Positions 9,489 to 44,524 of a stretch of DNA of 64,000 nt are shown here, piece by piece. Under the pieces are notes generated by a model. That model was not told the DNA's origin, did no database searches, and saw only the letters and a program-made list of their open reading frames with translations. This DNA comes from Aquimarina aggregata (GTDB lineage: Bacteria > Bacteroidota > Bacteroidia > Flavobacteriales > Flavobacteriaceae), in NCBI RefSeq assembly GCF_001632745.1, contig NZ_LQRT01000002.1, positions 806,001-870,000 on the forward strand. Direction: 5' to 3'. How positions within the stretch are numbered: position 1 is the stretch's first letter; every line of letters begins with the position of its first letter. The position numbers and the translations under genes are program-made.

Positions 9489-9932
9489 TTAAATCTTCTT
9501 AACTCGAACAGCATTCATTCCTTTCTGTCCCTTTTCTAACTCAAAACTAACTCTATCATTTTCTTTTACTTCTTGAGTTAATCCATTTACATGCACAAAG
9601 TAACGCTCTTGAGTTTCTTCATCATTAATAAACCCATACCCTTTAGAGTCGTTAAAAAAAGCTACTTTACCTTTACGCACTGGGTCAAATTCTACTTTCT
9701 CTCTTTTTGGAACGCCGATTTCAATATTTTCAGCTTTCACCTTTTTTCTTGGGTCTGGTGGAGTATCTGTTAAATAACCATTTTCATCCACATAAGCAAT
9801 CATACTATCTAACCCATTACCTTTGTTAGAATTAGCAAGGCGTTCAGCCTTCTTTTTTTGCTTTTCTTCGCGTTTTTTTAATTTCTTTTTTTCTTTTTCA
9901 ATTTTACTAAATGTCTGTTGTGATTTTGCCAT
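9489..9932 (-). CDS. Cold-shock-domain protein with basic N-terminal extension
   Basis: 147 residues. The C-terminal ~65 residues are a cold-shock domain with RNP1 'KGYGFI' and RNP2 'RYFVHVNGL', which bind single-stranded RNA or DNA. The first ~35 residues are almost all Lys/Glu ('KIEKEKKKLKKREEKQKKK'), a coiled or disordered basic tail not present in the ~70-residue classical CspA. This long form is common in Flavobacteria. It is likely cytoplasmic and acts on RNA. Its upstream region (9933-10233) is long and contains an 8-bp hairpin at 10021-10041, which could be part of a 5' UTR. Confidence 0.9.
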   Translation of the reverse strand: MAKSQQTFSKIEKEKKKLKKREEKQKKKAERLANSNKGNGLDSMIAYVDENGYLTDTPPDPRKKVKAENIEIGVPKREKVEFDPVRKGKVAFFNDSKGYGFINDEETQERYFVHVNGLTQEVKENDRVSFELEKGQKGMNAVRVKKI

Positions 9933-24864: not shown

Positions 24865-25176
24865 ATGATAGTATGGTCAGGAAGGGGATTCCTTTCTCTT
24901 ATAATTTTAGTCATTGTCTATGTAGTGCTTTTAAATTTCATACCAAAAGAACAAGGAGATTATGCATTAGTCATTGGACTTTTTATTGCTGGAATTTTTA
25001 GTTGGATTATGGGTAAAAAATGGAATAAACCAGAAGGTAGAACTGTTATTGACAAAAATACTGGTCAAGAAATTATTTTAAAGCCAAATCATAGTTTATT
25101 CTGGATTAAGATGGAATACTGGGGGATTATTTTTGGTGGAATAAGTATAGTACTGCTAATCAAACAATTTATTTAA
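24865..25176 (+). CDS. Small membrane protein in the vWA operon
   Basis: 103 residues with three hydrophobic stretches: 'GFLSLIILVIVYVVLLNFI', 'YALVIGLFIAGIFSWIMG' and 'WGIIFGGISIVLLI'. Between the second and third is a short soluble loop ('PEGRTVIDKNTGQEIIL'). No recognised family. It follows the DUF3108-like gene by 57 bp and is probably the last gene of that operon. Located in the inner membrane. Confidence 0.7.
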   Translation: MIVWSGRGFLSLIILVIVYVVLLNFIPKEQGDYALVIGLFIAGIFSWIMGKKWNKPEGRTVIDKNTGQEIILKPNHSLFWIKMEYWGIIFGGISIVLLIKQFI

Positions 25177-25338: not shown

Positions 25339-25539
25339 ATGATTAAGAACATTTTAAACTTAGACAGTGTTACTATCCTTAAAAAAGGAGAACAAAAAGC
25401 TATTAACGCAGGATTTTTTGCCAATTGCCCTCAATTTCAGCCTTGCTGGAGAGATAGTGATTGCGCTTGCGGTGGTTGTGGTGTAACAGTAAACAATAAT
25501 GGAGAGGATCTTTATATACCTGATCTTTGTGCATTCTAA
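25339..25539 (+). CDS. Cysteine-rich double-glycine-leader peptide (knottin-like core)
   Basis: 66 residues. The first ~25 look like the leader of Bacteroidota natural-product/bacteriocin-like precursors: 'ILNLDSVTILKKGEQKAINAG', with a Gly-type cleavage site (A-G) in place of GG. The core has six cysteines: C-x5-C-x5-C-x-C-x2-C-x16-C, including 'CWRDSDCACGGC'. The 'C-x-RDSD-C' part recalls squash-type cystine-knot protease inhibitors. No peptidase-ABC transporter or radical SAM enzyme is nearby. A leader-related peptide is at 44327. Own transcription unit: preceded by 160 bp of non-coding DNA and followed by a strong terminator. Confidence 0.78.
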   Translation: MIKNILNLDSVTILKKGEQKAINAGFFANCPQFQPCWRDSDCACGGCGVTVNNNGEDLYIPDLCAF

Positions 25540-25565
25540 AAAAAACAACAAAAAGTAAGAATTTT

Positions 25566-25604
25566 AAAATCAGAGCTAACTTTAGCAAAGTTAGCTCTGA
25601 TTTT
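25566..25604. terminator. Bidirectional intrinsic terminator
   Basis: An 18-bp perfect stem (AAAATCAGAGCTAACTTT and its complement) with a 3-nt loop AGC. Convergent genes lie on both sides, the peptide at 25339 and the M24 peptidase at 25612, so it serves both. Confidence 0.9.
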
Positions 25605-25611
25605 AATTGTA

Positions 25612-26928
25612 TTATCGTTTAGGAACAGTTATTAGATCTGTTTGTCTTTCATTTACGTATTTAAACCCTTCTTTTCCCCAGAACCCTGCTTCTTCTAACA
25701 TAATTCGAATATCTTTTTTCCATTCGGGAATAGTAACAGTTGTATTTAATTCGATAGCATACACTGTATTTTCAAACAAAGGATAGTCTCCTGTACCGGG
25801 CACACCTTCTTGTGAATCCCACATTCCTATAGTCGGACCTGATGAGTGCCCATATAAACCTAAAGGATGTGTATATATGGCAGGTTTAAGTCCTTCTGCC
25901 CTACCTTGCTCTAATGATTTAATTAATATTTCATTTCCTGTCTTACCAGTTTCGAAATTAGCAGTAAAAATATCTTGAATTCTGTTTCCATCTTTAAAAG
26001 CATTAACCAAAAATACTGGTGGTTTGTTTTCTCCATTTTTTAGAATATAAGCATGTTGCTGACAATCCGTATTTAGTCTTAAATACGTAATACCAAAATC
26101 ACAGTGAATAAGATCTCCCTGCCGGATCACCTTATCCTTCGGTCTATTCGAAAAAGAAACAATATGATTTTGTAAATCTTCCCCAGTTCGTTGAATATCA
26201 ACCGTAGGATGAAACCATGTTTTTAGCCCCATATCAGTTACTTTTTGTCGTAACCACCAAACTACATCATCAGTTGTAGTGGTTCCTGGTCTTATAACCG
26301 CTGTACTAAAGGCTTCAGAAATAATAGTATGAGTTATGTCTACAAGGTCTTTATAAATTTCAATTTCTTGAGACGTACGAGTTTCTATCCAAGCAATGGC
26401 TAATTTTTCTGCAGAGGTAACTTTATTTTTATAGACCTCTGGTAATTCTTGTATAAATTCTTCATAATCCGTCTTTACAACACCATCAACAATTCCAAAG
26501 TCTTTAGAAAAGTTAATACCTATTTTATTAGGGTTTCTATCTTGAATAATTTGCATTAAAGCCTTCCATTGGTTTGGTTGCTTTTCTTTATCCCAAGCTG
26601 ATTCAATATTTTTACCAACATTATATCTAGCAACTGCTAATTTTTCTATTGTATTTTTAGATTTATCTCTATAAAAAACAAGAATGGTTCTCCTTCTGGC
26701 GTTTAACCATGTTGCAGGCAACATAGTTCTAAGCACCGGGTCTTCATTATACTCTCTTGATATTATGATCCACATATCAAAGTTAGTGCGATCCATTAAT
26801 TGAGGTAAAAGATTATTAAATCGATCCTCTAAGACCATATCAATAACAGCCGCTCGTTCTCTTTGTGGAAGGATTTGAGCGTTAGAAATAGTCTGTATAA
26901 ACATTAAAAGAATAAGTAGTCTCTTCAT
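25612..26928 (-). CDS. Secreted M24-family metallopeptidase (Xaa-Pro aminopeptidase-like)
   Basis: 438 residues with a signal peptide (1-18, 'SNAQ'). The C-terminal half is the pita-bread fold with metal ligands in 'LIHCDFGITYLRLNTDCQQHAY' (two Asp; written in two pieces, 'IHCDFGITYL' and 'NTDCQQHAY'), His in 'HPLGLYGHSSGP' and Glu in 'YAIELNTTV'. The N-terminal half is a creatinase-like domain ('WLNARRRTILVFYRDKSK'). It probably removes N-terminal residues before proline from peptides in the periplasm. The terminator at 25566 is downstream. Single gene, 70 bp from the menE-like start. Confidence 0.88.
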   Translation of the reverse strand: MKRLLILLMFIQTISNAQILPQRERAAVIDMVLEDRFNNLLPQLMDRTNFDMWIIISREYNEDPVLRTMLPATWLNARRRTILVFYRDKSKNTIEKLAVARYNVGKNIESAWDKEKQPNQWKALMQIIQDRNPNKIGINFSKDFGIVDGVVKTDYEEFIQELPEVYKNKVTSAEKLAIAWIETRTSQEIEIYKDLVDITHTIISEAFSTAVIRPGTTTTDDVVWWLRQKVTDMGLKTWFHPTVDIQRTGEDLQNHIVSFSNRPKDKVIRQGDLIHCDFGITYLRLNTDCQQHAYILKNGENKPPVFLVNAFKDGNRIQDIFTANFETGKTGNEILIKSLEQGRAEGLKPAIYTHPLGLYGHSSGPTIGMWDSQEGVPGTGDYPLFENTVYAIELNTTVTIPEWKKDIRIMLEEAGFWGKEGFKYVNERQTDLITVPKR

Positions 26929-43113: not shown

Positions 43114-44283
43114 ATGGAAATTGGACAGTCTGATGTATTTGCATCTGTAGCTACTGGCATTGGTACCTTTCAAGGATTTCTAATTGCAATAAACTTATTA
43201 TTTTTAAGAAAAGGGTCTAAAAAAGCCAATCTGTTTTTATTTGCGTTATTATTGGCACAAAGTCTTATTATTTTTCAGAATTTCATCGTTTTTTCTGGAC
43301 TATATTATCAATTTGCACATATCACTCTTCTATTTTTTTCTTTTAATGGGCTTATTGGACCATTATTTTTTTTCTACACCTTATTTTTAATTTCACCGGA
43401 TAGAGGTTTGAAGTGGTATGACTTTATTCATCTTTCGTTTTTCTTTTATTTGTTATTTTTTACAGGAAATTGGGATTATATCAATCTGCCAGCATATCAA
43501 AAAATAGAAGCCATTCCGTATATCTATAGCCAAGAAAACTACACCCTCAGTTTTACAATATTGATTAGCGTTTTGTTAAAAAAGTCAATTACGCTAGCTT
43601 ATGTACTTATAGCATTTAGATTAATAAATACAAAAATTAAAACACTAAAAAATAATTTATCTGATACCACTATTAATTACTTGCGTCGTTTTAAACTTAT
43701 TACATACATTTTTGGACTGTGTATAATTACGCATATGTCTCTCTTTATCATTGATTACAACTATCATATCAAAATATATAAATTAGAAATATATATCCAC
43801 ATATTAAATTCTCTATTCTTAATTGTAATCGCTATAATAACTATTCAACAACCAGAAAGGTTATTATTTGTACTTCAGAAAAATAAGGTAACAAAGCTTA
43901 AATTTTCTAAAAAACAAGTACATCTTGATGAATTATTAGATCTTATGCTTAATCAAAAACCATATTTAAATCCTGAACTAAAACTTCATGATTTAGCAAG
44001 TCTAATGAATGCCCCTTCTCATACCTTATCAGACCAAATTAATAAAGAATTAGGTTTAAATTTTTATGATTTTATAAATCAATATAGAGTAAATGAATTT
44101 AAAAAAAGAGTTGTTTTACCCGAATATAAAAACTTGACCCTTATAGCAATAGCTCACGATGTAGGTTTTAATAGTAAAACTTCATTTAATCGAATTTTTA
44201 AAAAACATACATCTATAACCCCAAGTGAATTTTTGACCCAAAAACAAGTGTCAACTTCTGAAATCGGGTCTAAATTAAATTAA
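43114..44283 (+). CDS. Membrane-bound AraC-type transcriptional regulator
   Basis: 389 residues. Seven predicted membrane helices (to about 250), then a short linker and an AraC helix-turn-helix domain ('LHDLASLMNAPSHTLSDQIN', 'YDFINQYRVNEFKKRV', 'LIAIAHDVGFNSKTSFNRIFKKHTSITPSEF', given in pieces). Such one-component regulators sense a ligand in or at the membrane. The second helix-turn-helix 'DVGFNSKTSFNRIFKKHT' is the standard one. The cysteine-rich peptide gene follows 43 bp after the stop, so the regulator may control it. Confidence 0.88.
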   Translation: MEIGQSDVFASVATGIGTFQGFLIAINLLFLRKGSKKANLFLFALLLAQSLIIFQNFIVFSGLYYQFAHITLLFFSFNGLIGPLFFFYTLFLISPDRGLKWYDFIHLSFFFYLLFFTGNWDYINLPAYQKIEAIPYIYSQENYTLSFTILISVLLKKSITLAYVLIAFRLINTKIKTLKNNLSDTTINYLRRFKLITYIFGLCIITHMSLFIIDYNYHIKIYKLEIYIHILNSLFLIVIAIITIQQPERLLFVLQKNKVTKLKFSKKQVHLDELLDLMLNQKPYLNPELKLHDLASLMNAPSHTLSDQINKELGLNFYDFINQYRVNEFKKRVVLPEYKNLTLIAIAHDVGFNSKTSFNRIFKKHTSITPSEFLTQKQVSTSEIGSKLN

Positions 44284-44326: not shown

Positions 44327-44524
44327 ATGAAAGAAATCTTAAACTTAAAAGGAATTGTTCATCTTTCTAGAGATGCTAAAAAAAACATTAAAGGAGCATC
44401 AGGATTAAACGGATTATTTTGTGCTGGACCAGATAAATGTTGTGCTTATTCTAACGGATCCATTCAATATTGTTATCAAGGTACTTGCAAACCAGATGGA
44501 ACTTGTACATTTTTCAAAAATTGA
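44327..44524 (+). CDS. Cysteine-rich leader peptide (65 aa), bacteriocin-like
   Basis: 65 residues. Leader-like N-terminus 'ILNLKGIVHLSRDAKKNIKGA', related to 'ILNLDSVTILKKGEQKAINAG' of the 25339 peptide, with a Gly-Ala cleavage-type end. The core has six cysteines in the pattern C-x5-CC-x9-C-x4-C-x5-C, suggesting three disulfides. No maturation enzyme, immunity gene or peptidase-ABC transporter is adjacent. Starts 43 bp after the AraC-type regulator and ends just before a 17-bp hairpin at 44537. Role (antimicrobial, signal or other) unknown. Confidence 0.75.
   Translation: MKEILNLKGIVHLSRDAKKNIKGASGLNGLFCAGPDKCCAYSNGSIQYCYQGTCKPDGTCTFFKN

Follow-up and report, generated by a model that had tools for sequence, protein, structure and literature searches.

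A putative knottin-like core behind a double-glycine-type leader in Aquimarina aggregata

Within a 64,000-nucleotide stretch of Aquimarina aggregata DNA (contig NZ_LQRT01000002.1, positions 806,001 to 870,000; this whole stretch is referred to as the window), a small gene at 25339 to 25539 encodes a cysteine-rich peptide in which the string CWRDSDC recalls the squash trypsin inhibitors, raising the question of whether a bacterium exports a peptide with the fold of a knottin, or inhibitor cystine knot (ICK), and what such a peptide would do. Most known knottins come from animals, plants and fungi. The analysis favours, with a probability of roughly 0.6, a leader-bearing precursor that would be exported by a peptidase-containing ATP-binding cassette (ABC) transporter (PCAT) and whose core would fold like a knottin and act as a bacteriocin-like competition peptide. 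Should the fold be confirmed, bacteria would possess a dedicated secretion and oxidation route for making knottins, which may also offer a natural production system for disulfide-rich mini-proteins, and the family would provide a testable bacterial case of venom-like diversification with a constant leader, a variable core and one exporter.

The peptide gene and its leader

The open reading frame (ORF), on the positive strand with an ATG start, encodes a 66-amino acid precursor of an exported cysteine-rich peptide, MIKNILNLDSVTILKKGEQKAINAGFFANCPQFQPCWRDSDCACGGCGVTVNNNGEDLYIPDLCAF, and its position, its core spacing of C-x5-C-x5-C-x1-C-x2-C-x16-C and the string CWRDSDC are exactly as the original prediction gave them. 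Orthologues in Aquimarina are 53–73% identical to the window peptide, and in a seven-sequence alignment DNA conservation is confined mostly to the stretch from ATG to stop, the DNA upstream of the gene being poorly conserved. The ratio of nonsynonymous to synonymous substitution rates (dN/dS) is approximately 0.13 against locus L033 (0.20/1.55) and 0.24 against L034 (0.21/0.87), with dS far exceeding dN in the close pairs L033/L034 and L053/L054 and the weakest of the ten pairs examined being L048/L053 (dN 0.06, dS 0.13); dS is saturated in some pairs. A strong bidirectional intrinsic terminator (25564 to 25606, both strands; z -9.4) lies between the peptide gene and a convergent Peptidase_M24 gene. 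Because of the constraint in orthologues, the conservation within the reading frame and the terminator downstream, 25339 to 25539 is a genuine gene under purifying selection and not a chance ORF. A scan for sigma-70 promoters found two, against a mean of 2.4 in shuffled sequence, and hence no excess.

The first 25 residues, MIKNILNLDSVTILKKGEQKAINAG (25339 to 25413, positive strand), form a double-glycine-type leader with a predicted C39-peptidase cut after AG, leaving a 41-amino acid core (25414 to 25536, positive strand). The Gly-type leader of the original prediction, from which export had been proposed, stands, but its ending is Ala-Gly (INAG) and not Gly-Gly, and orthologues show either. 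An ending of GG, GA, GS or AG is what a double-glycine leader exported by a C39 ABC transporter should have, and the leader is common to unrelated cores both in this genome and across the genus. A leader profile matches 17 places in the A. aggregata genome at E ≤ 10 and 12 at E ≤ 0.001, with cores that differ, and 47 of 58 genus genomes carry matches at E ≤ 0.001. Six selected Aquimarina genomes hold 51 (G001), 42 (G027), 35 (G018), 50 (G480), 6 (G023) and 1 (G003) matches at E ≤ 0.01. That the gene specifies a real exported leader peptide is highly probable.

Core framework and predicted fold

A search with a core profile found 44 places at E ≤ 0.01 in 27 of 66 Aquimarina genomes and, beyond the genus, matches in 7 of 397 genomes of the family and 6 of 395 genomes of the phylum. 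A wide taxonomic spread was rejected, strong core matches being found only in Aquimarina and two other genera and the remainder being weak. The cysteine framework was compared across 28 distinct members after exclusion of near-identical rows, partial or broken copies, more distant leader peptides and L145, in which Ser occupies the usual position of the sixth cysteine (C6) and the last cysteine lies in an extended tail. The original prediction had tied its knottin assignment to conserved cysteine spacing in homologues, and the spacing is conserved: 27 of the 28 members keep six cysteines, with loop 1 of 5–6 residues, loop 2 always of 5, loop 3 of 0–2, loop 4 of 2–3 and loop 5 of 12–18. A C-terminal C-[ASV]-[FY] is kept in 26 of 28. 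Two subfamilies are distinguished, A, which includes the window peptide and has C-x-C-x2-C, and B, which has CC-x3-C at the same place (for example C-x6-C-x5-CC-x3-C-x15-C); L137 bridges them, combining the window-type frame of subfamily A with DCCSGRC.

The ICK signature comprises six cysteines with loops of approximately 3–7, 3–8, 0–7, 1–4 and 4–13 residues. The window loops of 5, 5, 1, 2 and 16 lie within the first four of these limits and exceed the last, so that the window peptide meets only a looser ICK spacing. In its close relatives loop 5 is 12 or 13 residues, and those with loops of 5,5,1,2,12, of 6,5,1,2,12 and of 5,5,1,2,13 fall wholly within the signature. Random placement of six cysteines over the same span with the outer two fixed gives ICK spacing, by these limits, in 1.4% of cases with a last loop of at most 13 and in 2.3% with one of at most 19. 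One member, L140, is without both C1 and C4, a joint loss that fits a C1–C4 bond as far as the sequence can tell; a random pair loss would strike a knottin pair in one of five cases. Genome G001 carries three strict-ICK paralogues at L268, which are 52–57% identical to the window protein over the first 48–54 residues.

AlphaFold2 modelling of the window core with 18 relatives gave a mean predicted local distance difference test score (pLDDT) of 81.9 and a predicted template modelling score (pTM) of 0.47, with a C-terminal hairpin of strands 22–28 and 31–39, and modelling of subfamily B gave 81.8 and 0.48, also with a C-terminal hairpin. The small antiparallel sheet with C-terminal hairpin that characterizes ICK peptides is present in the predicted structures. 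Comparison by VIA-align reached Z ≥ 2 in 3 of 49 candidate chains for the window model (1h9i, 7fbp and 8g4y; Z 2.1–2.5) and in 5 of 19 for the subfamily B model (8g4y, 1h9h, 1h9i, 8f2f and 1w7z; Z 2.1–3.4), all of them knottins, with the candidates being Foldseek's short list, picked partly by sequence similarity, a choice that tempers the result. No non-knottin fold among these candidates reached Z 2. We take 8g4y and 8f2f to be ICK scaffolds, and 5wov and 5wow to be MCoTI-based.

Profile searches of the PDB point in the same direction. The 19 cores together matched 24 sequences at E ≤ 10 (best 0.022), of which 22 are ICK by name, 4r12 is not and 9dxx could not be assigned by name, and subfamily B gave six matches, five of them ICK by name (best E 0.035). 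A 13-core subset again returned 24 matches at E ≤ 10, 22 being knottins by name, whereas the same 13 cores reversed returned a single non-knottin. Scanned singly, the 19 cores gave weak Pfam matches, for the most part to families of ICK toxins (best E 0.0025), and the window core gave none. The core alone of the strict-ICK paralogue L268 scored 21.4 bits against Toxin_21, a spider ICK toxin family with a cut-off of 21, and was the one core among ten paralogue cores scanned to pass a curated ICK profile. Its best PDB match was the venom knottin 5fzv (E 0.0008), and 10 of its 25 matches at E ≤ 10, including the six best, were venom knottins. These models and comparisons make it likely that the window core folds in a knottin-like manner.

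Several results weigh against this fold. The window protein and its core match no Pfam or NCBIfam model, a single-sequence PDB search with the window protein gave two matches, neither a knottin, and Foldseek returned no significant match, and no knottin, for either model. The profile E-values given above are insignificant on their own, the VIA-align Z-scores are low in absolute terms, and pTM is 0.47–0.48. The Toxin_21 score of L268 drops to 19.5 bits, below the cut-off, once the leader is included, and 15 of its 25 PDB matches are low-density lipoprotein (LDL) receptor class A modules and the like (best E 0.39), so a cysteine-pattern effect contributes to these matches. Among ten leader-family peptides scanned with Pfam, seven (proteins 3 and 5 to 10) had no match, and for another paralogue (protein 4) the matches to DUF7107 and WAP stayed under the cut-off.

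Two other readings of the core bear on these points. The same leader family may carry a different disulfide fold here, with the knottin resemblance a convergence on the short motif C-x5-C-x(0-2)-C, which we regard as unlikely. It would accord with the low fold scores, with the weak match of a paralogue to LDL receptor class A modules and with the composition of the leader family, where most cysteine frameworks are non-ICK. Of 65 rows read for leader peptides, 42 came from G480 (which has 50 places) and 22 from G001 (51 places), the remaining row being empty; six cysteines are present in 39. Once a duplicate, the empty row and a truncated one had been set aside, 62 cores were left, 38 of them with six cysteines. 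Strict ICK spacing is present in 7 of these 38, yet shuffled cores would give 0.93, and relaxed spacing is present in 13 against 1.19 expected, counts that take in tandem relatives, so that the cores are not all independent. The reversed-profile control, the restriction of Z ≥ 2 to knottins and the paired loss of C1 and C4 in L140 also argue for a knottin rather than convergence. The other reading, a protease inhibitor of the squash type, had been put forward in the original prediction and is highly improbable. The RDSD is indeed shared, CWRDSDC resembling the C-RRDSD-C stretch of MCoTI-type peptides in the profile alignment, the second loop C-x5-C with DSD is that of the squash trypsin inhibitors (PF00299), and a knottin-like fold would suit such a function. 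However, loop 1 of the window peptide is PQFQP, Lys or Arg stands at its second position (P1) in none of the 27 six-cysteine members, the C3-x1-C4-x2-C5 spacing differs, and the window protein has no match to Squash at E ≤ 10 or at E ≤ 1. Membership of the squash family was rejected on the P1 residue and the spacing. The knottin-like exported peptide of the original prediction is retained, on the conserved framework, the Z ≥ 2 matches to knottins only and the presence of an export pump in the genus, while its squash membership and function are not.

Export and disulfide formation

The C39 peptidase domain (PF03412) is found at E ≤ 1e-10 in 52 of 58 genus genomes, with seven strong matches in the A. 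aggregata genome. All six genomes without C39 are also without a leader match and none of the 47 leader-positive genomes is without C39 (Fisher 1.1e-5), and among genomes at least 90% complete C39 is absent from 2 of 7 leader-negative against 0 of 44 leader-positive genomes (p 0.016); these statistics ignore shared ancestry, and four of the six C39-less genomes are less than 90% complete. The family-associated pump in A. aggregata is L301 (G000:C3, approximately 180.5–182.7 kb), with an HlyD-type fusion protein encoded after it. A single C39 match is present in eleven leader-positive genomes, and in 10 of the 10 tested (G463 being left aside) it is a 734-amino acid C39-peptidase ABC transporter 87–92% identical to L301. 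Five of these ten genomes carry 25–31 leader matches, and four further leader-positive genomes tested also carry an orthologue of the pump (91–93%). In five leader-negative genomes with C39 the best match to the pump is at most 74% identical, and in G003, with its one weak leader match, 72%; one C39 hit of G007 contains a stop, and its longest open piece was used in the comparison, and both G005 hits are truncated. The recurrence of a single orthologue in all tested single-pump leader-positive genomes points to one pump serving the dispersed leader peptides in trans as the most likely arrangement.

VKOR proteins form disulfides, and a C39-like/VKOR gene or its tail stands directly 5′ of the pump in 7 of 15 genomes, clearly in G006, G471, G017 and G023 and as the last 17 residues in G026, G465 and G018, the upstream DNA inspected being 227–318 bases per genome and 7.5 kb in A. 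aggregata. A gene of 526–532 codons precedes the pump in L309, L310 and L311, with VKOR and C39-like domains in L309 and L310, and the L311 protein is 57% identical to that of L309. The C39-like/VKOR fusions beside the exporter, at 9705–11294 of L309 (negative strand) and 7577–9175 of L310 (positive strand), are possible leader-binding disulfide-forming enzymes. Among 29 leader-peptide loci, a VKOR homologue lies within approximately 1.5 kb in 12 and a pump within approximately 1.5 kb in six.

In the proposed mechanism, a housekeeping-like PCAT encoded far from the peptide gene would bind the leader, cut after INAG and export the core. Once the core is outside the cytoplasm, its six cysteines would undergo oxidation, probably assisted by a VKOR-thioredoxin protein, and the oxidised core would form a knottin-like (ICK) mini-protein with the pairing 1–4, 2–5 and 3–6. 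The mature acidic peptide would probably have a specific partner on other bacteria and serve in competition as a narrow, bacteriocin-like peptide, and the window peptide would be one among many venom-like variants with one leader and one exporter. Of this account, the analysis establishes the gene, the leader family, the conserved framework and the joint occurrence of family and pump; the fold is a prediction, and cleavage, disulfides and target are inferred.

Function, locus and wider family

A bacteriocin-like role is tentatively favoured, at a little under even odds. The window core has a net charge of -4, and 23 of 28 members are net negative (range -6 to +2, with subfamily B mostly at -1); with such an acidic core the peptide is unlikely to act by plain membrane disruption and more likely to have a specific partner. 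Broken copies in at least four genomes (L039, L133, L142 and L143), exchange of peptides in a conserved slot and the many variants resemble the birth-and-death evolution of competition peptides, to judge from the genomes compared. The account as a whole has further points to its disadvantage: in its acidity the core departs from most membrane-active antimicrobial peptides; the peptide locus has no immunity, regulator or exporter gene linked to it; a VKOR gene was seen neither in the 7.5 kb before the pump in A. aggregata nor in the 227–318 bases before it in seven other genomes; and the A. aggregata stretches searched gave only distant VKOR homologues of 27–28% identity (L096 and L313).

The main functional rival is a peptide pheromone of the ComC/Blp kind, sensed by a two-component or membrane regulator and controlling gene expression. 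Double-glycine leaders serve pheromones, a LytTR response regulator and a TPR histidine kinase lie approximately 3 kb upstream of the window peptide, and leader peptides also follow regulators elsewhere: in 8 of the 9 subfamily B loci displayed, a large regulator-like gene (with TPR and AraC-type helix-turn-helix domains shown in L146 only) precedes an array of three leader peptides, in one case four, and the window's second leader-family peptide, at 44327 to 44524, comes after an AraC-like membrane protein. However, kinase and regulator were both detected near the peptide in only three of seven subfamily A loci with 6 kb flanks (L035, L036 and L039), and up to approximately 50 leader peptides per genome together with broken copies suit weapons better than signals, leaving a pheromone improbable, if not to be dismissed lightly. 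A role as an effector, comparable to venom knottins, aimed at animal or algal hosts of these marine bacteria or at their grazers is more doubtful still. Its appeal is that the closest solved structures are venom and plant knottins, but such matches reflect fold and cysteine pattern only, and a shared fold shows no function.

The gene convergent with the peptide gene (25612 to 26928, negative strand; Peptidase_M24, PF00557) marks a conserved slot. All seven named subfamily A loci (L033 to L039, with a broken peptide in L039) have an M24 gene no more than 6 kb away, as do 3 of the 18 named for subfamily B (L046, L052 and L057), and in other Aquimarina the slot holds interchangeable leader-family peptides. 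A functional link was rejected, 17 of 30 M24 loci having no leader peptide in the short flanks read, several of which are too short to exclude one; the M24 gene is taken as a synteny marker only. No exporter, maturase, immunity gene or thiol oxidoreductase was recognised among the ORFs at 19.9–31.8 kb or the seven window proteins scanned with Pfam. As to an enzymatically modified ribosomally synthesised and post-translationally modified peptide (RiPP), no maturase was recognised near the locus (ORFs at 19.9–31.8 kb), a distant one being possible. The 103-amino acid protein encoded just upstream (24865 to 25176), considered as an immunity partner, has no Pfam match and is unsupported in that role; a homologue lies approximately 2.0 kb from the peptide in L035 and approximately 1.2 kb in L039, and the five remaining subfamily A loci yielded none.

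The peptide shares with knottins such as EETI-II, MCoTI-II and the ICK toxins of spiders, scorpions and cone snails six cysteines in the same order, near-matching loops, an SDC-C motif around C3–C4 and a predicted C-terminal beta-hairpin, and knottins are its sole Z ≥ 2 matches among the candidates compared. It differs in being bacterial and acidic, with a double-glycine leader instead of a secretory signal peptide, a last loop of 16 residues in the window member and the C-terminal C-[ASV]-[FY]. The strict-ICK paralogue weakly matches NCBIfam NF047792, the CCPGW family putative bacteriocin (23 bits, E 6e-5), but far under the curated cut-off of 80, and the window protein has no match to it. 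Within the phylum, the Bacteroidetocins are a precedent for disulfide-bearing leader peptides that have a double-glycine-peptidase exporter and a thiol oxidoreductase but no immunity gene (PMC6671954). The same text gives them a leader of 15–16 amino acids, four cysteines and a compact four-gene region with a transmembrane protein, thiol oxidoreductase and exporter (PMC6671954), unlike the window peptide with its 25-amino acid leader, six cysteines and lone gene probably served in trans. Membership of this group was rejected on leader length and cysteine count, and no exporter or thiol oxidoreductase was recognised among the ORFs at 19.9–31.8 kb. Among the literature matches listed from open PubMed Central papers, no title concerned a bacterial knottin or a conserved knottin-like family with double-glycine leaders; each of these two peptide classes is known already, and their combination in bacteria is absent from those matches. 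Aquimarina is known for a rich secondary metabolism (PMC10734526).

The wider leader family may amount to a venom-like arsenal, with tens of diversified disulfide-rich mini-proteins per genome, true cystine knots included, under one leader and a single PCAT/VKOR machine, a reading for which we see even chances. If true, it would be a bacterial counterpart of the knottin diversification of cone snails or spiders. G001 and G480 each have approximately 50 scattered double-glycine-leader peptide genes, and those read are nearly all cysteine-rich. Eight-cysteine leader peptides at L273 (G001) and L250 (G480) keep the framework CC-x5-CC-x11-C-x7-C-x7-CC between both genomes, and we know of no family with this framework. 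Tandem leader peptides occur at L266 (G001:C2:759450-761330) and L022 (G030:C48), four cores of L266 having C-x4-C-x(7-9)-CC-x(4-5)-C-x4-C, a conotoxin-like ICK framework, and a VKOR homologue is found nearby in G001 and G027 (L220 and L219). The second cysteine-rich peptide gene of the leader family in the window (44327 to 44524, positive strand) encodes 65 amino acids with a leader ending in KGA; it stands directly after an AraC-like membrane regulator (43114 to 44283, assigned by reading of its sequence), a layout that resembles the subfamily B arrays.
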